Source of the DNA: Synergistales bacterium
Lineage (GTDB): Bacteria; Synergistota; Synergistia; Synergistales; Aminithiophilaceae
Direction: 5' to 3'
NCBI GenBank assembly: GCA_018433595.1
Contig: JAHDQY010000027.1
Span: 1-51,017 of the forward strand
DNA length: 51,017 bases
The notes beneath the pieces are model-generated. The model did not search any database and was not told the DNA's origin. It saw only the letters and a list, made by a program, of their open reading frames with translations. Each line of letters starts with the position of its first letter. Positions within the stretch are counted from its first letter, which is position 1. Shown here piece after piece: positions 39,867-51,017 of this stretch. The position numbers were made by a program, and so were the translations under genes.

Positions 39867-40460
39867 GTGAAAACAGTCGGGAAAGCGCTTTTCGTTGCGG
39901 GTCTTTTGCTGCTTTGTGCGGGTGCAGTGCGGGCCGCTGAATTCGAGGCCGATCTCGTCATCGAGGGGCCCATGGGCGCCATGACGGGGAAGATCTACGT
40001 CAAAGGCGACAGGCAGCGCCAGGACATGACGGGGGAGATGGGACGCACCGGCGTCATTACCTCAGGCGAGGAGGGCGCGACGCTGATTCTGCTTCACGAT
40101 CAGCAGGCCTACATGGAGATGAGCGAGGGGCAGTCTCCTCTGACGGGGATGAATGCCCCCGATCTCGACGGACTGACGGCCGAAGGAGAGGGCGCGAAGG
40201 GTCAGAAAATGGAGAAGCTGGGCAACGAGACCGTCGAGGGCTATCTCTGCGAAAAGATCCGTCTCGTCGATGAAGGATCCCCCGAGTCTTCGACGCTGAT
40301 CTGGTTCTCCCACGAGCTGGGTTTCCTTCTGAAGGCGGTCCATCAGTCTCCCGAGGGGACGTCGACGGTTCAGTACAGGAATATCGTCGCCGGAGCCGTC
40401 GCCGACAGCGTTTTCGACGTTCCTTCCGATTACCGCAAGCTTGATGTGGGGGCCTTCTGA
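39867..40460 (+). CDS. Exported DUF4412-type protein
   Basis: 197 residues from GTG 39867 (AAGGAGAGG upstream). Signal peptide (GKALFVAGLLLLCAGAVRA). Mature protein: FEADLVIEGPMGAMTGKIYV, YMEMSEGQSPLTGM, GYLCEKIRLVDEG and PSDYRKLDVGAF, the LolA-like beta pattern of DUF4412 proteins. Probably in the envelope. It lies ahead of the large exported cluster but has its own spacing. Confidence 0.75.
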   Translation: MKTVGKALFVAGLLLLCAGAVRAAEFEADLVIEGPMGAMTGKIYVKGDRQRQDMTGEMGRTGVITSGEEGATLILLHDQQAYMEMSEGQSPLTGMNAPDLDGLTAEGEGAKGQKMEKLGNETVEGYLCEKIRLVDEGSPESSTLIWFSHELGFLLKAVHQSPEGTSTVQYRNIVAGAVADSVFDVPSDYRKLDVGAF

Positions 40461-40599: not shown

Positions 40600-41472
40600 A
40601 TGGTCAGGAAATTCCTGGTTCTGGCATTTGTCGCGGCGCTTTTCCCGGCGGCCTTGTGGGCTCAGGAGACGGTGAAGGCTCAGGAGACGGTGAAGGCGCA
40701 AGCCCTTTCATCGACGGATTCGAACGTCGTCGATGAGACCGAAACGGCCCGCATCGACTGGACCGAGGGTTACGTCGAGGCCCGAGGACAGGCCGTGGCC
40801 CCATCGGGCAAGCAGGAGACGGCCCAGGGCAAGCTGCTGGCCCGGCGGGGGGCCGTCGTCGACCTTCAGCGGAATCTTCTGGAGTTCCTTCAGGGCGTTC
40901 GCGTCGACGCTCGAACGACGATGAAGGATTTCATGACTCACGACACCGTCCGCACCGAAGTCCAGGGCATGATCAAAAACATCGAGATCCTCGAAGCCTC
41001 CTGGGACGGCGAGGTCTACACCGTCGTCGGCCGCGTCAAGCTGGAGAAGGTGCGCCGGGCCCTCCTGCCGGCCCTGCCTGAAAAACCGTCGGAAAAGGCG
41101 GTGCCTTCCGCTCCCGTGCCGGGCAGGAAGCCTTCCGGCAGCTACACGGGCCTCGTCGTCGACGCCCGCCATCTGCCTCTCATTCCGGCCATGACCTTCC
41201 GTATCGTCGACGAGTCGGGCAGGGAGGTTTACGGCCTTGCCTCCGTCGACCGTGAACGCTTCCTCTCGTCGGGACTCTGCGATTACCACAACAGCCTTGA
41301 CTACGCCAAGGGGGCGCCCCGCGTCAGCGACGCTCCCGTCGCGGTCAAGGCCCTGCGGGTGGTGGGGCCGGAGAACGTCGATCTCGTCGTCTCCAACGGC
41401 GATGCCGCCAGGATCCGGGGAAGCGCCTACGATTTCCGCGTCCCCTGCCGCGTCTCCGTCGTCAAGAGGTAG
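40600..41472 (+). CDS. Exported LPP20-family protein (cluster gene 1)
   Basis: 290 residues from ATG 40600 (GGAAGGAGAGG upstream). Signal peptide to ALWA. It is followed by a twice-repeated QETVKA encoded by an exact 18-bp tandem duplication (40660-40695). The LPP20-like domain (about 50-155) contains LLARRGAVVDLQRNLLEFLQ and IKNIEILEASWDGEVYTVVG. A second part, TGLVVDARHLPLIPAMTFRI...VSNGDAARIRGSAYDFRVPC, is often found with it. Envelope protein of unknown role. The next gene starts 4 bp downstream. Confidence 0.72.
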   Translation: MVRKFLVLAFVAALFPAALWAQETVKAQETVKAQALSSTDSNVVDETETARIDWTEGYVEARGQAVAPSGKQETAQGKLLARRGAVVDLQRNLLEFLQGVRVDARTTMKDFMTHDTVRTEVQGMIKNIEILEASWDGEVYTVVGRVKLEKVRRALLPALPEKPSEKAVPSAPVPGRKPSGSYTGLVVDARHLPLIPAMTFRIVDESGREVYGLASVDRERFLSSGLCDYHNSLDYAKGAPRVSDAPVAVKALRVVGPENVDLVVSNGDAARIRGSAYDFRVPCRVSVVKR

Positions 41473-41476
41473 GACC

Positions 41477-42616
41477 GTGACTGCGATGAGGCGCATCGCC
41501 CCCGTCCTTATTCTGCTGGCTCTCCTTGTCGGAATGCCCTTTGGCGCCGTTGCCCAGGAGACGATCCGCGTCTCCGCCGAAGGGTCGGCCGCCGTTGTGG
41601 GAGGCGACGTTCCGCGGGCGAGGGAGGAGGCCAAGCGCCAGGCTTACCGGGACGCTCTGGAAAAGGGCGTCGGAGCCTACGTGCAGGGCATCACGGAGAT
41701 GAAGGATTTCGAGGTCGTCCGCGACAGGGTCTTCTCCCAATCCCAGGGAATCGTCACCTCCTTCACCATCCTCAGCGAGGGCGAGGCCGACGGGATCTAC
41801 ACCATCGAGGCCGACTGCCTTGTCGCCACGGGGGCCCTTGACGGCGTCCTCGGCCCCGCCGTCATCGATGTCCTCGGCAATCCCCGGGTCATGGTCCTCG
41901 TCGATGAATCGATCGAGAACGAGCGTCCCTTCCTTTCCACCGTCGAGGGCGAGGTACTCCGGCTCTTCGAGAAGGCCGGCTATCTCCTCGTCGACGCGGG
42001 CCAGGCCGGCAACCTCGATCAGCGGCAGATGGACCTGGCACGGGAGACGGGCGACGTCACCCTGCTCCAGGAGCTGGCCCGCTCTTTCCGGGCCGACGTC
42101 CTGATCTACGGCAAGGCCCAGGGCATCGCCTACGCCAAGCAGAAGGTGGAGGGCGTGACCCTCTACGGGGTCCGCTCTCAGGTGCAGCTCAAGGCGGTCA
42201 TCGCTCAGACGGCCTACGTCCTCGGGACGGAGGCCTTCGAGGCCAAGGAGAAGGGGACCTCCGCCCAGGACGGGGCCGTCAAGGCCTTCAAGCCCGCGTC
42301 ACGGCAGGCCGCCTCCTCCCTGGTCAACAAGGTGGCCTACGCTCTGGTGAGCGGCTCGGCCGGAGCCATGCCGGGGAGGACGATCAACGTCGTCGTCGAC
42401 AAGGTCTCCTTCACCCAGGTCCGGGAGATCAAGAAGGCCCTGGAAGAGGCCCCGGGCGTCGTCGGCGTCTACCAGCGGGCCTTCGGCGGCGGCAAGGTGG
42501 AGCTTGACGTGGTGACGGAAAACTCCGCCGAAGATCTGGCCGTCGAACTGGAAAAACTCTCCGTCGAGGTGACGGGGCTGACGGCCGGAACCGTCGAAGG
42601 GAAGCGGGTCGAATGA
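41477..42616 (+). CDS. Exported FlgT/CsgG-like protein (cluster gene 2)
   Basis: 379 residues from GTG 41477; ATG 41486 is an alternative. Signal peptide MRRIAPVLILLALLVGMPFG. N-terminal FlgT-N/LPP20-like domain (REEAKRQAYRDALEKGVGAY, SQSQGIVTSFTILSEGEADG), then a CsgG/FlgT-M-like domain (NPRVMVLVDESIENERPFLS, SFRADVLIYGKAQGIAYAKQ), then about 90 residues with a small alpha/beta repeat (INVVVDKVSFTQVREIKKAL). The same order as flagellar assembly protein T, but no flagellar gene is in sight. Overlaps the next gene by 4 bp. Confidence 0.72.
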   Translation: MTAMRRIAPVLILLALLVGMPFGAVAQETIRVSAEGSAAVVGGDVPRAREEAKRQAYRDALEKGVGAYVQGITEMKDFEVVRDRVFSQSQGIVTSFTILSEGEADGIYTIEADCLVATGALDGVLGPAVIDVLGNPRVMVLVDESIENERPFLSTVEGEVLRLFEKAGYLLVDAGQAGNLDQRQMDLARETGDVTLLQELARSFRADVLIYGKAQGIAYAKQKVEGVTLYGVRSQVQLKAVIAQTAYVLGTEAFEAKEKGTSAQDGAVKAFKPASRQAASSLVNKVAYALVSGSAGAMPGRTINVVVDKVSFTQVREIKKALEEAPGVVGVYQRAFGGGKVELDVVTENSAEDLAVELEKLSVEVTGLTAGTVEGKRVE

Positions 42617-43077
42617 GACGCCTCGCGGCGCTTGCCCTCCTTTCAGCGGCTTTTTTCGTCCTTTCTTCGGGAGCGGCATCGGCGCTCTCGAAGTCGGACC
42701 TGGAACGGATCTGGCGAAACAACGGCGCCGTCGAGGGGATCCAGACCTTCCGTTTCGGCCTTGTCGACTGGGCCGGCGGCTCCGCATCCGTCGAGGGGAC
42801 GGCTCTCCTTCGGGACTCCTCCGCCCAGGCGGGGCTCCTGGCTCGGCGGGGGGCGGCATCCGATGCCCGCAAAAGGCTTCTTCTTCTGCTTTATGAGATC
42901 CGTTACGGTCTTCCGGAACGGCTCAAATCCATCGAGGTCTCGGGAACCGTCGTCGAGGGCCACGTCGATTATGCCGGCATCCGGGGCGATCGCTACGTCG
43001 TCGGCGTCACGCTCCCTCTGGAGCGGCTTTTCGACGAGTGCGTCCTCTTCGAGGCCGTCCTGCGGCAGGGGCCATGA
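42613..43077 (+). CDS. Small exported LPP20-like protein (cluster gene 3)
   Basis: 154 residues, signal peptide MRRLAALALLSAAFFVLSSG. Core GLLARRGAASDARKRLLLLL and SIEVSGTVVEGHVD, clearly related to the LPP20-like core of gene 1 and probably a shortened paralogue. Start overlaps the previous stop (ATGA) and its end overlaps the next start, so the genes are translationally coupled. Confidence 0.65.
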   Translation: MRRLAALALLSAAFFVLSSGAASALSKSDLERIWRNNGAVEGIQTFRFGLVDWAGGSASVEGTALLRDSSAQAGLLARRGAASDARKRLLLLLYEIRYGLPERLKSIEVSGTVVEGHVDYAGIRGDRYVVGVTLPLERLFDECVLFEAVLRQGP

Positions 43078-43868
43078 GAACGACCCGTTCAGGGCTTCTG
43101 CTCGCTCTCCTTTTCGCCTTCACGGCCCTTCCTCTCCATGCGGAGAGCGCTCTGCCCAAGGGCAAGAGCGTCGCCGTCCTGGTCCGTTCGGCTTCGGCCC
43201 AGCACGGGACGACGGTCGAGGCGATCCTCATCAGGGCCCTTCTCGACGGCGGTTTCCGGGCCGTCGATCAGAGGCAGCTTGAGCGGATCCGCCAGGCCAA
43301 GGCGGCCGCTCTGGCCCTCGACGGCGACGTCGAGGCCATCCTGGAGCTGAGCCGCTCCTTCGGCTTCCAGGTCCTTCTCTCGGGCCGGGCCGAGGTGGCG
43401 CCGCCGGTCCGGAACGAGTTCGGCCTCTTCACGGCCACGGCCGATCTGGCCGTCTCGGCCTGCCTCGGCTCCAACGGGCGCCAGATTTACGCCGATGCGA
43501 CGACGGCGAAGGAGATCGGCTACACCGCCGCCGAAGCCGCCCAGAAGGCCCTTGAAGCGGCGGCCCGTCAGGAAGCGAAGCGCATGATCGAAGGCGCCCC
43601 GGCCGAAGCGGCCAAGGCCGGAGCGCCGACCGTCACCGTCGAGGTTTCGGGGCTGCGATCCTTCGTCGAGGCCCATGGCATCGTCGAAAGCTGCAACCGT
43701 GCCGGCGCGGCGTCGGCCCGCCTCGACCGGTTCTCCGGGGGCGTCGCCGTCGTCTCGGTCTCCTTCCCGGGAGACGCCCAGGCCCTGGCTCAGGCGATCC
43801 TTAAGCAGCGAAGCGACCTGGCCCTGGAGGGGATCGAGGCGGGCCGGATCCGGCTGATACGGCGGTGA
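43074..43868 (+). CDS. Exported CsgG-like protein (cluster gene 4)
   Basis: 264 residues from ATG 43074. Signal peptide to PLHA. CsgG/LpoB-like fold suggested by GKSVAVLVRSASAQHGTTVE, ILIRALLDGGFRAVDQRQLE, SFGFQVLLSGRAEVAPPVRN and YADATTAKEIGYTAAEAA. The C-terminal ~80 residues (TVTVEVSGLRSFVEAHGIVE) resemble the last domain of gene 2. Probably anchored or assembled at the outer face of the membrane. Confidence 0.65.
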   Translation: MRTTRSGLLLALLFAFTALPLHAESALPKGKSVAVLVRSASAQHGTTVEAILIRALLDGGFRAVDQRQLERIRQAKAAALALDGDVEAILELSRSFGFQVLLSGRAEVAPPVRNEFGLFTATADLAVSACLGSNGRQIYADATTAKEIGYTAAEAAQKALEAAARQEAKRMIEGAPAEAAKAGAPTVTVEVSGLRSFVEAHGIVESCNRAGAASARLDRFSGGVAVVSVSFPGDAQALAQAILKQRSDLALEGIEAGRIRLIRR

Positions 43869-43936
43869 GCCTCTTCCGATCCGAGGCACCTCCCGCGGGA
43901 GACCCCGTTTCCCTTATTCGAGAAAGGGTGAGAGTC

Positions 43937-44644
43937 ATGAAAAAAGAGAAGATCCGGTTCGTCGTCGCCCTTCTGGCGGTCATGGTCCTTGCCGCCGTGT
44001 CCCTGCCGGCTCAGGCCGAGGTTCGCCTTTTCGTCGACAGAGTCACGGTCCGGGTCGACGATCCGACTCTGGGACAGCCGTCGATCCTGAACGATTTCTA
44101 CCCCAAGGGGCACCGCACTCACAATAACCTGGCCCTCGTCTGGAACGAGACCTCCGTCTGGGTCTACGACATCCGGGTTCATCAGTGGATGTCCCTGGAC
44201 GGTTTCGCCCCCTTGGCGGGCATGCTCTCCGATGAGCTGGCCCTGGCCTGGGAGCCGGGACGGGTCGCCGTCTACGACAGCCGGGACCGCCGCTGGGTGA
44301 CGAGTGAGGCGCTGCCCGGCAGGGTCAAGAGTCCCCTTCTTTCCCGAAAGATGGCGGCCGTGACCTGCGAGGAGGGCTTCGTCGTCTACGACCCCCTTCT
44401 CAAGGCCTGGCAGACGGCGGGCGATTTCGCCGTTCAGGAAGCCCAGCTGGGAGACAACCTGGCCGTCGCCTGGGACGGCCGGGACGCCGTCATCTACGAC
44501 ACGACGGTGCGCCAGTGGGTGGTGAAGGAGGGCATCGCTCCTCAGGCCGCCATCGTCGAGCCCTATGCGGTCTCCATCTACAGTGCCGAGAAGATCTACA
44601 CCTACGACGCCATGACCCACCGGTGGGGGGAGACCCCCCGCTGA
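43937..44644 (+). CDS. Exported beta-propeller-like repeat protein (cluster gene 5)
   Basis: 235 residues from ATG 43937. Signal peptide KIRFVVALLAVMVLAAVSLP to AQA. About five imperfect repeats of ~40 residues with the pattern LALVWNETSVWVYDIRVHQW, LALAWEPGRVAVYDSRDRRW, MAAVTCEEGFVVYDPLLKAW, LAVAWDGRDAVIYDTTVRQW, SIYSAEKIYTYDAMTHRW. Resembles kelch-type blades; too few for a full propeller unless it dimerises. No family recognised. Confidence 0.7.
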   Translation: MKKEKIRFVVALLAVMVLAAVSLPAQAEVRLFVDRVTVRVDDPTLGQPSILNDFYPKGHRTHNNLALVWNETSVWVYDIRVHQWMSLDGFAPLAGMLSDELALAWEPGRVAVYDSRDRRWVTSEALPGRVKSPLLSRKMAAVTCEEGFVVYDPLLKAWQTAGDFAVQEAQLGDNLAVAWDGRDAVIYDTTVRQWVVKEGIAPQAAIVEPYAVSIYSAEKIYTYDAMTHRWGETPR

Positions 44645-44733
44645 AGGCGAAGGCTCTCTCGATCGGATGATGCCGGGCAGGCGGCGCCGGGGGGCGTCGA
44701 GGAACTCTAACATTGAGGAAAAGAGGTGAAGTC

Positions 44734-46086
44734 ATGACGGGAGTCCGTAAAAATAAGGTCCTTATAGGTTTTCTCGTGTTCGTTTCCTTGTTTCTGGCCG
44801 TCCCCTCGGGGGCCGTGACCTTCCATCAGGTTCCCGCCGGGGGGGGAGCTCCCCTCCCCGTTCAGACCTCTCCGGGGGCCGTGAACAGCGGCGGTTCCTC
44901 CCCGACGGCGGGATCGGGCGGGATCATGCGGGACCGTTCGGCGCCCCTGAGCCGGAGCGCGGCTCAGAGGGTCGGAGAGGCCTATCGGGAGATGGCTCTT
45001 GCCGCCGTCGAGGCCTATGCTGGCCTGAGCGCCTTTGTCTATGCCGACGGAAATCTCACTTCGGCGGGCGAAATGGAGGCCCGCTACAAGCTGGCGATGA
45101 GGGGCCTCGACGAGACGGAACGGCGGGCCCGCCGTCTCGACCAGGAGGTGCAGCTTGTCGAGCTTTCGGGGATGCCTCTGAGTCTGGAGGATCTGGCCTG
45201 TCTCTGGCGATACCTTGCCGCCGATCCGGCCTTCGCCGCCTATGCCCCTTCGGGGACTTACGGAATCAATCAGAAGGGGATGCTGGGCTCCCTTTCCAAT
45301 CTCTCCCGGAACGTGGCGAATCGTGCCGGAACGCTCAAGCGCAGCCTTCCCTCGCCCCAGATCGATACGGAGGCCGTCCGCGATCAGGTCGGGCGCTGGC
45401 TTTCGGCGACGAAGGCCGCGGCCGGTGTCATCGCCGGAGGGGCCACCTTTATCGCCGGGGCCGGTCTGGTCGTCACGGCGACGCCGCTGGGCATCGCCGT
45501 CGGCATCCCTCTCGCCATCGGCGGAGTCCTGGCGGGGGCCGACGCCATCGTGACGGGGACGGAGGACATGGCCGACGTGAGCGGCCAGGATCCCGGCTAC
45601 GAAATGGTCGCCCGTGATTCCCAGGCCCGTAAGAACCTGGCCACGGGGGCCAAGGTCGGCAATTACCTGAGCATTGTCACGTCGACCAATTCGGCGGGCA
45701 ATCTCGTGACCGCCGTCCTCCAGGCCCCCAACGAGGCCATGGAGACGGGGGAGGCCGTGACCAACGTCCTGGGAGAGATGATGGGGACGGGAGAGGGCCC
45801 CTCGCAGGGGACGGGCGTCGCGGGAGGAACGGTGGAAATTCTCGATACGCCGCCGCTCTGTCCCGGTCATTACATCGGCGTTCCGGGGATGAAGCCCGGC
45901 CAGGTCGATCTTCCTGAGCCCAACGATGCCTTCAAGAAGGTGGAGCGCAACATCTCCGATTACCGGCCGGGCTTCGGCCGGGCCCCCAGCGGCAAGGAGT
46001 GGTGGCACGCCTTCTGGGGAGAGACGCAGGAAGGCGGAGGCGGCGACGGTGGCGGTGGTGGCGGCAGCTGCGGCTGCGGATTTTAG
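44734..46086 (+). CDS. Exported protein with glycine-zipper-like core and Gly/Cys-rich C-terminal tail (cluster gene 6)
   Basis: 450 residues from ATG 44734 (AAGAGGTGAAG upstream). Signal peptide VLIGFLVFVSLFLAVPSGA, a low-complexity Gly/Ser stretch, a helical region (about 80-200), then a long small-residue hydrophobic region (AAGVIAGGATFIAGAGLVVT and TPLGIAVGIPLAIGGVLAGA) able to insert in a membrane. The C-terminus is GGGGDGGGGGGSCGCGF. I recognise no family. The hydrophobic part recalls pore-forming or glycine-zipper proteins, but that is only resemblance. Confidence 0.7.
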   Translation: MTGVRKNKVLIGFLVFVSLFLAVPSGAVTFHQVPAGGGAPLPVQTSPGAVNSGGSSPTAGSGGIMRDRSAPLSRSAAQRVGEAYREMALAAVEAYAGLSAFVYADGNLTSAGEMEARYKLAMRGLDETERRARRLDQEVQLVELSGMPLSLEDLACLWRYLAADPAFAAYAPSGTYGINQKGMLGSLSNLSRNVANRAGTLKRSLPSPQIDTEAVRDQVGRWLSATKAAAGVIAGGATFIAGAGLVVTATPLGIAVGIPLAIGGVLAGADAIVTGTEDMADVSGQDPGYEMVARDSQARKNLATGAKVGNYLSIVTSTNSAGNLVTAVLQAPNEAMETGEAVTNVLGEMMGTGEGPSQGTGVAGGTVEILDTPPLCPGHYIGVPGMKPGQVDLPEPNDAFKKVERNISDYRPGFGRAPSGKEWWHAFWGETQEGGGGDGGGGGGSCGCGF

Positions 46087-46140
46087 CCGCTTGGGGGAAG
46101 CCTGCAAGGGATCGGAAATGTCCGGGAAGGAGGGAAGGCC

Positions 46141-47286
46141 GTGAAGCTTGCCGGAGCGTTTCTCATCGTGTTATCGCTGGCCTTCGGGCCGATCGGCTCA
46201 GCCGGGGCCGCCCTGACGGTGGCCGTCAACCCCTTTCTTTCCCAGGGGGCGAGCCTTTTTCTGGGCTCCTCGGTGAGCGAAATTCTGGGTACGGAGCTGG
46301 TGGGAACGCGGGAGGTCACCGTTGTCGAGCGGAGCCAGCTCGGCGCGGTGGCGACCCAGCAGCAGCTGGCCCTTTCGGGCGTCGTCCCTACCGAGACGGC
46401 CGTCAAGGCCGGTCGCCTTGTAGGGGCCCGTTACTTCGTCCTCGGAGCCGTCAGCCGCTTCGGTCCCCTCCTCGTCCTGACGGCACGCCTCGTCGACGTC
46501 GAATCGGGGGCGGTCCTCAAGAGTTTCGAACAGATCTCCCGCGAGGGCGAGCGGGGCGTGACGCTGGCGACGAAAAACCTCGCCGCCGAAATGATCGCCT
46601 TCTTCAGCGGCGGCGCTCCGACGGAAGGGGCGCCCATGGACGATTACCGTTATTATCTCTACGAGGCTCTGGGCTACTACAACCTGGGCGACTATCGCCG
46701 CTCCCTCCCTCACTGGGAGAAGATGACCAAGCTGAATCCCAAGGACGGGCTGCTGCGCTTCATCACGGCCGGCGTCTATTATCAGGCGGGACGCTACAGC
46801 GACTGCCTCCTTGCGGCCCAGCAGGCCGTCACCTGGGACCCGACCTTCGCCGAGGCCCATCTCCTCGTCGGCAAGGCTTATTTCATGCTGGGTGACTATC
46901 ACAGCGCCACTCCGGCCCTCGACAAGGCCCTGGAGCTCAAGCCCGATCTGGCCGAGGCCCTCTTTCTCAAAGGTCAGGCCTTCAAGAACCGCAACCGCCT
47001 CGACGAGGCCGTCGACCTTCTCGTCGCGGCCGTCAAGGCCGACGACGGCTACATGCCGGCCTACCTCTCGCTGGGCCAGCTCCTCATCGAGGTCGGGGCG
47101 GCCGAAGACGCCGTCGGCGTCCTCCTCCCGGCGAGAGACAAGGAGCCGGAAAACGCCCAGGTGCGCTTCCTCCTCGGCATGGCCCAGTACCTGAGAGGCA
47201 ACCGCAAGGGAGCGGAGGAAGAACGGGAGGCCCTGCGAAAGCTCGACGCCTCCCTGGCGGAGAAATTGGAAGAACTGCTCAAGTAG
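46141..47286 (+). CDS. Exported CsgG-like protein with TPR repeats (cluster gene 7)
   Basis: 381 residues from GTG 46141 (GGAGGGAAGG upstream). Signal peptide to AGA. CsgG-like domain (about 25-155): LGTELVGTREVTVVERSQLG, GRLVGARYFVLGAVSRFGPL, ARLVDVESGAVLKSFEQISR. Then about five TPR units (YYLYEALGYYNLGDYRRSLP, AEAHLLVGKAYFMLGDYHSA, AEALFLKGQAFKNRNRLDEA...). Suggests a scaffold in the envelope. The CsgG part is close to that of cluster gene 9. Confidence 0.82.
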   Translation: MKLAGAFLIVLSLAFGPIGSAGAALTVAVNPFLSQGASLFLGSSVSEILGTELVGTREVTVVERSQLGAVATQQQLALSGVVPTETAVKAGRLVGARYFVLGAVSRFGPLLVLTARLVDVESGAVLKSFEQISREGERGVTLATKNLAAEMIAFFSGGAPTEGAPMDDYRYYLYEALGYYNLGDYRRSLPHWEKMTKLNPKDGLLRFITAGVYYQAGRYSDCLLAAQQAVTWDPTFAEAHLLVGKAYFMLGDYHSATPALDKALELKPDLAEALFLKGQAFKNRNRLDEAVDLLVAAVKADDGYMPAYLSLGQLLIEVGAAEDAVGVLLPARDKEPENAQVRFLLGMAQYLRGNRKGAEEEREALRKLDASLAEKLEELLK

Positions 47287-47336
47287 CGGTAGCAAGCCGT
47301 TTTTGCCGGCAGAAAACGGGAGAGGAGAGACGGAAC

Positions 47337-48077
47337 ATGAAAATGACAGGAAGAGAAAGAACCTTTATTGCGTGCCTCCTGAGCCTGGCCGTTCTGTTCA
47401 TCGCGGTCGCGGCCTTCGGCGGATGTGGATGTGGAGGCGGCGGAGACGGCGGTTCGGCGTCCGGCGCTCAGATTTCCAAACAGACGGAGAGGGCGCTAGC
47501 GCTCTTCCTCGCCGACGGCGCCCTTGAGGGGAAGAATCTCCTTGACGCCGAAGCCCTGGTGCCCCAGGTGACGGCGGAGAACGCCGACCTGGCCTTCCTC
47601 GTCGGCGCCAGCTATCTCCGGAGCGGCCGGTATGAAAAAGGCAAGGCCGTGATGGCCGAGGTCCTCGACAAGGGCTTCGACAGGATGGTCAATTTCTGGG
47701 GGGATGCCGAAAAGCTGCGCACCCTGGCGGCTTCGGAGCTGGCTTACCACGCCGGTCGCGAAGGCGATTCGAAGATCATCCTCTGGATCGAGGAGCGGAT
47801 GGGCAGGGAACTGGTCACCGATCAGCTCCTGGTCCGCGACGGCAAGGGCATTCTTGCCGGAAAGACCAAGCTCCGCGATGTCCTGCGCTTTCACAAGGCC
47901 CGGGCCTTTCATAACGAAGACGACAACGCCAGAGCCAAGGAGGTCCTTGCCGAACTTTCCTTCGCTTCGGGCAAGATCTTCGTCGACGGCGAAGTGCAGG
48001 GCCTGAGCGAAGCCGTCGCGAAGCTTCAGGCTCAGGTCGACGGCGTCGCTCAGGCTCTGCGTGCCTTCTTTGCCTGA
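47337..48077 (+). CDS. Probable lipoprotein with Gly/Cys-rich N-terminus (cluster gene 8)
   Basis: 246 residues. Signal region TFIACLLSLAVLFIAVAAFG followed by GCGCGGGGDGGSAS, where the first Cys can serve as a lipidation site (lipobox F-G-G-C, atypical). The mature part is helical, with TPR-like stretches (FLVGASYLRSGRYEKGKAVM). The Cys/Gly tract mirrors the C-terminal tail of cluster gene 6. No family recognised. Confidence 0.65.
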   Translation: MKMTGRERTFIACLLSLAVLFIAVAAFGGCGCGGGGDGGSASGAQISKQTERALALFLADGALEGKNLLDAEALVPQVTAENADLAFLVGASYLRSGRYEKGKAVMAEVLDKGFDRMVNFWGDAEKLRTLAASELAYHAGREGDSKIILWIEERMGRELVTDQLLVRDGKGILAGKTKLRDVLRFHKARAFHNEDDNARAKEVLAELSFASGKIFVDGEVQGLSEAVAKLQAQVDGVAQALRAFFA

Positions 48078-48129
48078 AGCGATGGCCGGGCGCCTCGTCC
48101 CTGACGAGGGAAGGGGGGAGGAAAAGGCG

Positions 48130-48615
48130 ATGAGAGAACGCGTCCTTGTTCACCGGGTCGTGACGGTCCTGGCCTTGCTGGCCCTGACGGCAGGTCCGGC
48201 CCTGGCCGAAATGACCCTGGCCGTCACCGACTTTCGCACCGTAGGCTGTCCCTTCTTCCTGGGAGGCGCCGTGGCGGAGCAGCTCCGCGGCCGTCTTTCC
48301 GGGGAATCGGGGTGGATCGTGGTGGAGAAGGCCCAGGTGGCCGCCGTCGCCGCCGAACAGCGTCTCAATCTCTCCGGCCTCGTCGACGACGAGACGGCCG
48401 TCAAGGTCGGCCGTTGTCTGGGGGCGCGCTACGTCATCGTCGGTTCCGTCAACGCCGTCGGGGGGCTTTACACGCTTTCGGCCCGCCTCGTCGACGTGGA
48501 AAGCGGCGTGGCCCTTCTGGGGTTCGAGACGGCCAGTGACAACGGAGAGGAGGGGGTTTTCGAGGCCTCCCGGGTGCTGGCCGAACAGATCGTTCAGGAG
48601 CTGTCCGGTTCCTGA
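48130..48615 (+). CDS. Small exported CsgG-like protein (cluster gene 9)
   Basis: 161 residues from ATG 48130 (GGGGAGGAAAAGG upstream). Signal peptide to ALA. A single CsgG-like domain: MTLAVTDFRTVGCPFFLGGA, WIVVEKAQVAAVAAEQRLNL, KVGRCLGARYVIVGSVNAVG, ARLVDVESGVALLGFETASD. Closely resembles the N-terminal domain of cluster gene 7, so probably a paralogue without the TPR part. Followed by a hairpin terminator. Confidence 0.78.
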   Translation: MRERVLVHRVVTVLALLALTAGPALAEMTLAVTDFRTVGCPFFLGGAVAEQLRGRLSGESGWIVVEKAQVAAVAAEQRLNLSGLVDDETAVKVGRCLGARYVIVGSVNAVGGLYTLSARLVDVESGVALLGFETASDNGEEGVFEASRVLAEQIVQELSGS

Positions 48616-48626
48616 AGGGACGAAAC

Positions 48627-48669
48627 GAACTGAAGAGGAGGGGCCTTGAGGCCCCCTCCTCTTCAGTTC
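48627..48669. terminator. Bidirectional terminator between convergent clusters
   Basis: GAACTGAAGAGGAGGGGCC pairs with GGCCCCCTCCTCTTCAGTTC (one bulge) around a 4-nt loop. It contains the stop codon of the minus-strand gene. No long T-tract follows, but the stem is very strong. Confidence 0.65.
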
Positions 48670-49277
48670 GTCCGCCTGAGGATATCGACGTCGATGAGGC
48701 GGTTGATGTGGTGCTGGATGTAAAAACAGGTGAAAAGAAAGGTCCAGAGCTTCGAGGGAGCCACGTTCCCCTCGGCGTAGTCGGGGGCGATTCCGGCGAC
48801 GTGGTCCCGGAGCATCCGTCGCATCCTGAAGGCTATCCAGATCCAGAGGGCGAAGGAGATCAGGCTCATCCAATCGGGAGAGTCCTCTCCTTCCAGCGAC
48901 ATTCCGAAGAGGAGGGAGATCAGGGTCAGGCCGAGAGGCAGAAAGGCGACGAAGTCGGAAAGCTTTTCCGTCGAGGCGAGAGCGTTGATCTGCTTGCGCC
49001 GCAGGAAGATCCAGCAAGCCGGGTAGATCCCCAGGGTCAGGATGGAGAAAACCACGAACTTGAAGATGCCGATCCGCTTGAAGCCGATCTTGGGGCCGGA
49101 GAAACGGTCGCCGATGGGGCTCACGCCGTCCTTCGTTCCGGCACCGCCGTCGTCGGCCTCGGGCCTTTCCTCGGCAGGCAGCAGGTTGCCGCAGTAGGCG
49201 CAGTAGGTCGAATCCGGCGCGTTTTCGGCGCCGCAGGAGCGGCACTGGAGGGGACGTGACGGGATTTCCGGGTTCAT
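48663..49277 (-). CDS. Zinc-ribbon membrane protein, DUF4234-like
   Basis: 204 residues. N-terminal zinc ribbon CRSCGAENAPDSTYCAYCGN, then three or four membrane helices with the DUF4234-like pattern FKRIGIFKFVVFSILTLGIY, PACWIFLRRKQIN. ATG with AGGAGA upstream. It lies 18 bp after the neighbouring membrane gene and may work with the SPFH protein. Confidence 0.7.
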   Translation of the reverse strand: MNPEIPSRPLQCRSCGAENAPDSTYCAYCGNLLPAEERPEADDGGAGTKDGVSPIGDRFSGPKIGFKRIGIFKFVVFSILTLGIYPACWIFLRRKQINALASTEKLSDFVAFLPLGLTLISLLFGMSLEGEDSPDWMSLISFALWIWIAFRMRRMLRDHVAGIAPDYAEGNVAPSKLWTFLFTCFYIQHHINRLIDVDILRRTN

Positions 49278-49295
49278 GAGGGTCTCCTTTCGCCG

Positions 49296-50018
49296 TTATT
49301 TTTCACGGAGGAGCAGGGCTTTCCGGCGGCGCAGGCCTTCGAGAACGCCCGAGGCCAGCCGGAGGTCGTGCTCGGAAGGGCCCCCGCTTTCGTGGGTGAG
49401 GGCCAGGGCTTCCGCGAGAGCTTCGTCGAGGGCGTCTTCGATGGGACGGGAGGCGTCGATGCCGAGGGGGTCGGCGTAACGGAGCGCCTCGGCTGCCTCC
49501 TCCCAGGCCCGGGACGATGCGGCGTCTTGCCTTGCCGCCGCCTTGCGGGCCAGGGAGAGCGCGTCGTCGGCGCGGCGCGCGAAATCGACGGCTTCGCGGC
49601 GGCCTGCCGCCGCCCGGGGCGTCGATGAAAGAGAGGCCATGACCCCCGCCCCTCCCAGGACGAGGAAGAAGGCGAGGCCGACGACATGGGCCAGGACGTA
49701 GGTCGTCGCCGAAAGGTTCAGGGCCTTCCAGAGCAGCAGCGGTGCGGCGATGACGAAGGCGTCGTAGAGCAGAACGATCGTCCCCAGCCCCATGAAGAGG
49801 GGAAGGGGCAGGGCTCCGGCATCGAGGCGCAAGACGTTCTGGAAGGCGGCGTAGGCGAAGGTGACGACGACGGCCGATCCGAGGAAGGCGAAGGTCGTCC
49901 AGAAGCGGGTCTCCCGCGTCTCCGACGGGTGCATCACGAGGAGAACCGCCGCCGTTGCGGCCAGGACGACGATCGCCATGAAAAGCAGCGTCAGGTTCAT
50001 CTTGCGTGCGCGTGCCAT
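49296..50018 (-). CDS. Membrane protein of unknown function
   Basis: 240 residues. Four hydrophobic segments in the first ~135 residues (LTLLFMAIVVLAATAAVLLV, FLGSAVVVTFAYAAFQNVL...), then a charged helical cytoplasmic tail (ARRADDALSLARKAAARQDA...LRRRKALLLREK). No family recognised. AGGAGGTC precedes the ATG. It lies 20 bp downstream of the SPFH-zinc-ribbon gene in the same unit, a context like the B. subtilis ydj genes (comparison by arrangement only). Confidence 0.7.
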   Translation of the reverse strand: MARARKMNLTLLFMAIVVLAATAAVLLVMHPSETRETRFWTTFAFLGSAVVVTFAYAAFQNVLRLDAGALPLPLFMGLGTIVLLYDAFVIAAPLLLWKALNLSATTYVLAHVVGLAFFLVLGGAGVMASLSSTPRAAAGRREAVDFARRADDALSLARKAAARQDAASSRAWEEAAEALRYADPLGIDASRPIEDALDEALAEALALTHESGGPSEHDLRLASGVLEGLRRRKALLLREK

Positions 50019-50038
50019 GGAAGAAGACCTCCTGAAGG

Positions 50039-51017
50039 CTAGTCTCGGGCCTTATGGCCGCATCGGGGGCAGAAAGAGCCTTCCCTGGGGAGGGGCGTGC
50101 CGCAGTTGGGGCAGCTTTCCGTCAGGGCCTTGCCGCATCGGGAGCAAAAGCGCATCTCCTCTGTGACCGGAGCCCCGCAGTGGGGGCAGGGAGTGGGCTG
50201 GGGGGCGCCGCATTCGGGGCAGCGCGGGGCTTCGTCGGGGACATCGTTGCCGCAGGAGGCGCATCGTTTCAGCGTTCTTCCGCAGGACGGGCAGAAGCGG
50301 GCTTCCGGTTGCAGCGGCGCATTGCAGGCGCTGCAACGGCCGGCTTTCTCCCTCTGGAGACTCTCGCCGCAGCGGCTGCAGAAAAGGGCTCCGGCGGCGT
50401 TGGCCGTGCCGCAGGCGGGACAGGGCCGTCCTTCGGCGGTGCCCAGATGGCCGGCCAGTTCCTTTGCCGACGTTCCGAGGGCGCCTCCGATGCCGAATCC
50501 CATGCCCACGCCCATGGCGGCCTGCATCGTTCCGCCGCCGCCCTCGTTGGCGGCGGCCTTGTCGAGCACTTCGAAGGAGCGCTGCTGGCGGTAGTCCGTC
50601 CCGAGGATCTCCAGCTCGGCCCGGCGGGCCAGGGCGGCCTTGAGGCGCATCACGGCAGGATCCTCTTCGGGCACGTTGACGGAGGTGACGAAGAAATTGA
50701 TCAGCTCCAGCCCGAAGGCCTCCAGGTCCGGAGCCAGGCTTTTTCCCATATGGGAGGAGATCTCGTTCAGATAGGCGTTGAGCTCGAGAACGCTCTTTTT
50801 TTCGAAGATGATGAACGCCGAAAGGAGATCCTTGACGCGGCTTACCAGCAGGCCTCGGAAGTGGCGGGCCAGCGCTTCTCTGTCGAAGATGTTCAGGGCG
50901 CCCACGAGCTTGACGAGAAACTTGCGGCTGTCGGCGACGCGCAGGCCGAACTGGCCGTAGGCGCGTACGGGGAGGAAGACGCCCCAGCGGGGGTCCTGGA
51001 TCTGGATGGGGCTTGTC
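50039..51017 (-). CDS. SPFH-domain protein with multiple C-terminal zinc ribbons (YdjI-like), 5' end outside the window
   Basis: The frame is open to the window edge, so the N-terminus is missing. Residues seen first (IQDPRWGVFLPVRAYGQFGL, VADSRKFLVKLVG) are the SPFH/virion-core-like (YdjI) family core, followed by LGLELINFFVTSVNVPEEDP. After a Gly/Met-rich linker come six CxxC-type ribbons: CPACGT...CSRCGE, CSACNA...CPSCGR, CASCGN...CPECGA, CPHCGA...CSRCGK, CPNCGT...CPRCGH. Probably a membrane-associated scaffold. An internal GTG at 50905 is not the true start. Confidence 0.83.
   Translation of the reverse strand, partial: TSPIQIQDPRWGVFLPVRAYGQFGLRVADSRKFLVKLVGALNIFDREALARHFRGLLVSRVKDLLSAFIIFEKKSVLELNAYLNEISSHMGKSLAPDLEAFGLELINFFVTSVNVPEEDPAVMRLKAALARRAELEILGTDYRQQRSFEVLDKAAANEGGGGTMQAAMGVGMGFGIGGALGTSAKELAGHLGTAEGRPCPACGTANAAGALFCSRCGESLQREKAGRCSACNAPLQPEARFCPSCGRTLKRCASCGNDVPDEAPRCPECGAPQPTPCPHCGAPVTEEMRFCSRCGKALTESCPNCGTPLPREGSFCPRCGHKARD

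Follow-up and report, generated by a model that had tools for sequence, protein, structure and literature searches.

Nine consecutive genes of a Synergistales bacterium were found to make up a co-conserved, undescribed set of envelope genes with LPP20, FlgT and CsgG-superfamily cores, and the whole set is present in four families of Synergistota. The genes, here called g1 to g9, occupy positions 40600-48615 on the plus strand of the window, by which we mean the whole analysed stretch of 51,017 nucleotides (assembly GCA_018433595.1, contig JAHDQY010000027.1; contig C3 of genome G000 in our set). It seems likely that their products form a ring or collar of some kind in the envelope. The fuller reading, in which the genes specify a periplasmic ring or collar that is associated with the outer membrane, akin to FlgP/FlgT, specific to Synergistota and probably in the service of the flagellum, has in our judgement about an even chance of being right, and the flagellum as the machine served falls a little short of that.

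The original prediction, made from the letters alone, had described nine exported plus-strand genes with several starts overlapping stops, and this description was borne out. All nine open frames were verified, with plausible starts and ribosome-binding sites, and all nine N-termini were judged by eye to be Sec signal peptides. The g2/g3 and g3/g4 pairs overlap by 4 bases each; the remaining intergenic gaps are 13-89 bases. The genes and the evidence for each are as follows.

g1, 40600..41472, plus strand: FlgP/LPP20 domain (about residues 44-152) followed by a second domain (about 180-290); profile against PDB, AlphaFold2, Foldseek
g2, 41486..42616, plus strand: FlgT-like protein of three regions, the conserved hub of the cluster; FlgT_N, AlphaFold2, Foldseek
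g3, 42613..43077, plus strand: short domain of the LPP20/FlgP type whose hairpin insert is shortened; hhalign to the g1 family, no Pfam match
g4, 43074..43868, plus strand: exported protein whose C-terminal domain resembles that of g2; weak CsgG and FlgO matches
g5, 43937..44644, plus strand: exported protein, judged propeller-like by eye from some five YD...W repeats; Pfam propeller match below threshold only
g6, 44734..46086, plus strand: exported, fast-evolving protein; its hydrophobic core is rich in glycine and its C-terminus in Gly and Cys
g7, 46141..47286, plus strand, GTG start: CsgG-superfamily N domain, then TPR repeats; CsgG 2.4e-10, TPR 4e-19
g8, 47337..48077, plus strand: lipoprotein with lipobox AFGGC, TPR-like at best (0.1, not significant)
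g9, 48130..48615, plus strand: LpoB/CsgG-superfamily single-domain protein; LpoB 1e-5 and CsgG 1.1e-5, both over the Pfam cut-off

The predicted domain labels were mostly right: LPP20 in g1 and g3, FlgT in g2, CsgG with TPR in g7, CsgG in g9 and the lipobox of g8 all stood, whereas the CsgG label of g4 stays weak and the propeller of g5 comes down to five visible repeats. Single-sequence Pfam searches gave no hits for g1, g3 and g4; family profiles were more sensitive.

g1, g2 and g3 are related to FlgP and FlgT

The g1 family profile (A2) matched FlgP of the Campylobacter jejuni basal disk at 1.8e-15 (PDB entry 9hmf, the flagellar motor's periplasmic scaffold). Three more FlgP-type ring-protein chains gave values of 6e-6 to 2e-5, and for Vibrio FlgP the value was 1e-3. 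The match to FlgP covers the segment that forms its ring-building beta-hairpin (PMC12222027). Strong as the likeness to the Campylobacter basal disk is across this hairpin, g1 differs in having a second domain and no evident lipobox, and the partners FlgQ and PflC/PflD were not identified here. Comparison by hhalign unites g3 (98.4%) and the g2 N domain (96.6%) with g1 in a single domain family.

An AlphaFold2 monomer model of g1 (predicted local distance difference test, pLDDT, 82.4) was compared with known structures by Foldseek. Its best match was Treponema pallidum Tp0624 (1.4e-13, about 270 columns, template modelling score (TM-score) 0.62-0.64, 18-19% identity), followed by FlgP (6e-4) and then HP1454 and Lpp20. 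The g1 protein has the D1-D2 fold of Tp0624, matching both domains, but stops after the second and does not have the OmpA-like third domain. According to the passages covered of an earlier study, D1-D2 without OmpA had already been noted in nearly 50 proteins of various bacteria, and those passages make no mention of FlgP, FlgT, Lpp20 or a gene cluster (PMC5104382). Our comparison suggests that Tp0624-type D1 domains are of the FlgP type. The g1 family is present in 56 of the 151 Synergistota genomes sampled. Extra g1-like copies lie outside the cluster in G118 (contig C12, L270) and G040 (contig C5, L271), and in G118 one is about 3.3 kb from a g6 relative.

The g2 protein consists of a FlgP/LPP20-type N domain, a CsgG/FlgT-M-like middle and a small C domain. 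As a single sequence the window g2 falls just below the Pfam cut-off for FlgT_N, and FlgT_N was detected in 16 of 18 members of the g2 family; the g2 profile matches FlgP-type PDB chains weakly (best 2e-4). In a Foldseek search with the AlphaFold2 model of g2 (pLDDT 81.6) the top two PDB matches were both Vibrio FlgT (8z5n_0, 7.6e-11; 3w1e, 9.7e-11) over 383-384 columns, and GNA1162, CsgG and others followed at about 1e-5, roughly five orders behind. With a global TM-score of no more than 0.3 between g2 and FlgT, the likeness lies in the domains more than in the way they are arranged. The NCBIfam model for the Leptospira lipoprotein LipL46 matched g2 residues 25-212 at 4e-10, far under its cut-off; an N region of this FlgT-like kind may be present in LipL46 too.

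The gene set is conserved across Synergistota

Members of the g2 family were found in 67 of the 151 genomes (E < 1e-40). When one genome per species of Bacteria and Archaea was scanned with the g2 alignment, matches came only from Synergistota, with the exception of two odd labels. One is a contig labelled Phycisphaerales bacterium Planc_01 (L085), which holds a window-type cluster at 43-64% identity and is probably misbinned Synergistota; the other, 'bacterium GBS-1', matches a contig of G005, which is Synergistota. We found nothing relevant in the literature on Synergistetes with CsgG or LPP20.

Two types of gene order could be distinguished among 41 loci, and they also separate in the g2 tree. 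The window type, g1-g2-g3-g4-g5-(g6)-g7-g8-g9, occurs in families f1, f3, f5 and f6, and the sister type consists of g1-g2-(g3)-g4 and, in addition, a single CsgG-type gene or a pair of them. Both g5 and g8 are kept in window-type clusters. In family f5 the window set is divided between two loci, one holding g2-g3 (L049), the other, read in G040 only, with g1 divergent from g4-g5-g7-g8-g9 and with g6 adjoining g9 (L272). In G105 a window-type and a sister-type cluster face each other tail to tail (L042/L082).

The order g1-g2-g3-g4-g5-g7-g8-g9 repeats in other families, and the members are not scattered but retained even where they are split between two loci. These observations bear on the idea that the genes are a loose array of unrelated envelope lipoproteins with no joint function. 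Most members are without an assigned function, and g6 lies away from the main locus in G022 and G033, as such an array would allow; the order kept between families, the retention of the split f5 set and the overlapping frames make it the least probable of the explanations considered, and a very improbable one.

The cluster tracks flagella

The window genome is flagellate, with FlhA on contig C38 and FlgH on contig C6. FlhA or FlgH was detected in 65 of the 67 genomes with g2, compared with 47 of the 84 without it (Fisher 1.2e-9). Counted by genus, flagellate and non-flagellate numbered 25 and 1 with g2 and 12 and 16 without (p 2e-5), and permutation within families also linked g2 to flagella (p 1e-4). 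A test on an RpoB tree (140 genomes) favoured the model in which the two traits depend on each other (likelihood ratio 22.0; 21.6 with midpoint rooting), a value reached by none of 60 data sets simulated under independence. The secretin was useless as a variable control, being present in 144 of the 151 genomes.

No curli, flagellar or wall-synthase gene adjoins the cluster, as had been noted at the outset, and a flagellar collar had been set aside on the ground of that distance. We return to it here: this genome has flagellar genes, its g1 and g2 specifically resemble FlgP and FlgT, and across the phylum the presence of the set follows that of flagella. A flagellar collar is at present the leading specific reading.

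Several observations weigh against it. The tree test used a single gene tree with about 11 changes of flagellar state and incomplete metagenome-assembled genomes, and g2 also correlates with large genome size (likelihood ratio 13.4). There are 47 flagellate genomes without g2. Conversely, G137 (89% complete) has the entire nine-gene cluster and gave no match to FlhA, FlgH or the rod family, and G122, which has g2 and a fragmented assembly, gave no match to these markers either. Tests of the neighbouring genes at three loci (L049, L059 and L065) turned up no structural gene of the flagellum, and a sigma-28 promoter upstream of g1 was not enriched (mean best score 8.1 vs background 7.9). In the g1 monomer model the hairpin region is of low confidence, and no strands are modelled there. 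Moreover, the core is not exclusively flagellar, as 17 or 18 genomes have a sister cassette beside a type VII system (see below).

The neighbours tested at those three loci encode AA_kinase/PUA, aldehyde dehydrogenase, Met-tRNA synthetase, TatD, a chemotaxis-receptor signalling domain, an EssC-like protein and four proteins without a Pfam match. On the strength of these neighbours, membership of a flagellar operon was rejected.

Both FlgP and FlgT are proteins of the flagellar H ring (PMC6375700). The H ring of Vibrio and Shewanella comprises FlgO, FlgP and FlgT. The Synergistota cluster resembles it in that FlgP- and FlgT-type proteins are encoded side by side, g2 finds its best structural match in FlgT along almost all of its length, and the genomes are nearly always flagellate. 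It differs in that g2 is only about 10% identical to FlgT, the cluster is unlinked to flagellar genes, two FlgP-type proteins and one further such domain in g2 are present, there is no clear FlgO, g5-g9 are extra, and one cluster-bearing genome apparently has no flagella. Because the restriction to flagellate genomes is not strict (65/67) and a FlgO member is not established, the cluster should not be filed as an H ring.

CsgG-superfamily members and the missing pore hairpin

Both g7 (40.5 bits) and g9 (25.3 bits) score over the Pfam CsgG cut-off of 20.8 bits. Judged from its sequence, g4 probably belongs to the CsgG/FlgO superfamily as well, if weakly: Pfam CsgG matched 5 of 25 members of its family at 0.002 and FlgO 3 of 25 at 0.019. 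A g2 query hit g4 at 27% identity (E 1.3e-8). A sister relationship of g4 and g9 was rejected (hhalign 2.9%).

The barrel of CsgG is built from transmembrane hairpins. In all 13 window-type g7 and g9 proteins measured, the stretch of the first transmembrane hairpin (TM1) is 8 residues long, whereas it is 28-32 residues in pore-type relatives from sister clusters and about 30 in the curli channel CsgG itself. Since g7 and g9 do not have the TM1 hairpin, a curli-type channel formed by either is unlikely, and such a channel was rejected for the cluster, in which no other curli gene was seen. The 'secretion channel' offered by the original prediction is therefore not supported for this cluster in the form given there.

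A pore-type CsgG/TPR paralogue that aligns with CsgG through the first hairpin is encoded elsewhere in the window genome, together with a g4 paralogue, on contig C72 (L267, 7768-12353). The genes flanking this pair encode a beta-helix protein that carries a Synerg-CTERM sorting signal (NCBIfam, 1e-7) and another protein with a similar tail; pairs of CsgG and g4 paralogue also occur in non-flagellate genera (L273, L280).

The g6 family is restricted to 13 of the 151 genomes, namely those with a window-type cluster. Relatives are 26-30% identical to g6, and its place within the cluster varies. We had considered g6 an intruder, as it is missing from the locus in G022 and G033, and dropped this view on account of the family's distribution; g6 is a candidate client or inserted component.

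In the main alternative, the cluster is a flagella-independent apparatus for export or surface assembly that carries a client, most likely g6 or proteins of the Synerg-CTERM type, to or through the outer membrane, the link to flagella being an indirect one through larger, free-living genomes. We consider this a credible explanation, if clearly less probable than not. The co-occurrence of g6 with the window-type cluster, its fast evolution and its Gly/Cys-rich tail would suit a client; hairpin-bearing CsgG proteins of the pore type exist in the sister type and at C72 beside Synerg-CTERM proteins; and G137 retains the cluster without flagellar markers. On the other hand, the pore hairpin is missing from g7 and g9, the window cluster has no export ATPase and its genome no EssC, and the tree test prefers dependence between g2 and flagella.

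By analogy with LpoB, the cluster could also be an activator of peptidoglycan synthase or a module of wall growth. The g9 protein exceeds the Pfam LpoB cut-off, and its best PDB match is LpoB (4q6z, 0.055), yet it reaches only 22.4 bits against the cut-off of 110.55 of the NCBIfam LpoB equivalog. As LpoB, CsgG, GNA1162 and FlgT form one fold superfamily, the match to LpoB is unspecific. The genomic context is not one of wall synthesis, and the FlgP/FlgT partners and the patchy spread (67/151) fit such a role poorly, so that we hold it to be very unlikely.

A sister cassette beside an apparent type VII system

An EssC-like FHA/FtsK ATPase of about 1500 amino acids was found in 18 of the 151 genomes. 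All 18 have g2, in one case as a fragment only, and in 17 of them a cassette gene shares the contig with essC, the nearest lying from 11 bases to about 4.4 kb away and usually within 3 kb. Four EssC loci were read (L060, L061, L065 and L073), and 14 more genomes were included by their EssC match. At one locus the small genes downstream match WXG100 (2.4e-13) and YukD (4e-5, slightly below the cut-off), and comparable small open reading frames are present in the other three. The g2 proteins linked to these systems form one supported clade within the sister type, and EssC correlates with g2 on the tree (likelihood ratio 21.4).

The sister cassette resembles the Bacillota type VIIb system in its essC-like ATPase (18 genomes) and in the YukD-like and WXG100 genes downstream where examined; the window genome, in which EssC gave no match, does not. 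Type VII systems have been surveyed in Bacillota and Actinomycetota (PMC11217815), and no description of type VII secretion in Synergistetes or Synergistota was found in the literature. To judge from these matches, Synergistota, a diderm phylum, have what looks like a type VII system, and CsgG-type genes mostly lie beside it. That related cassettes share the essC contig in 17 of the 18 genomes with a type VII system speaks for the export apparatus described above.

A wider possibility, which we regard as rather doubtful, is that one modular outer-membrane ring kit of FlgP-like, FlgT-like and CsgG-superfamily proteins serves more than one trans-envelope machine. Given an EssC motor and a pore of CsgG, the kit would make a complete two-membrane type VII system, and without a pore but with g5-g9, in the window lineage, it would serve the flagellum or export g6.

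Genomic setting

The host genome is 2.53 Mb in size and 99.65% complete, and the genomes nearest to it are those of Synergistota, among them 'Synergistota bacterium strain L-13' of the same genus. The cluster is bordered upstream by two genes, one for a GGDEF protein on the minus strand and one for a DUF4412 protein on the plus strand, and downstream by minus-strand genes.

g0, 39867..40460, plus strand: exported DUF4412 protein (Pfam 5.9e-13), 139 bases upstream of g1

This gene was found in L034-L036 only, within the genus, and is probably outside the system. The downstream trio on the minus strand (48663-50905) is kept within the genus and consists of two zinc-ribbon-like genes with short CxxC motifs (48663-49277 and 50039-50905) and a membrane protein between them.

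Proposed arrangement and meaning

In the ring or collar that we favour, g1 and the LPP20 domains of g2 and g3 would polymerise through their beta-hairpin inserts into rings beneath the outer membrane, and the FlgT-like g2 would connect the ring to a trans-envelope machine. The CsgG/LpoB/FlgO-superfamily proteins g4, g7 and g9 may add further ring layers, those of g7 and g9 without a pore hairpin, while docking of partners and anchoring of the ring could fall to the propeller-like g5, the TPR repeats of g7 and the lipoprotein g8.

The results define, at the level of genes and across the phylum, an envelope machine that had not been described, in a group of diderm bacteria that has received little study. 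They connect it with ring proteins of the flagellum known until now chiefly from Gammaproteobacteria and Campylobacterota. If the cluster encodes a flagellar collar, structures like the H ring extend to a distant phylum. The most surprising result is an apparent type VII system that is coupled to ring proteins of the outer membrane. Should the sister cassette supply the part of that system in the outer membrane, it would bear on how a second membrane could be crossed, and, were the modular kit to prove real, this would be a first candidate for the outer-membrane part of a type VII system in a diderm phylum outside the mycobacteria.

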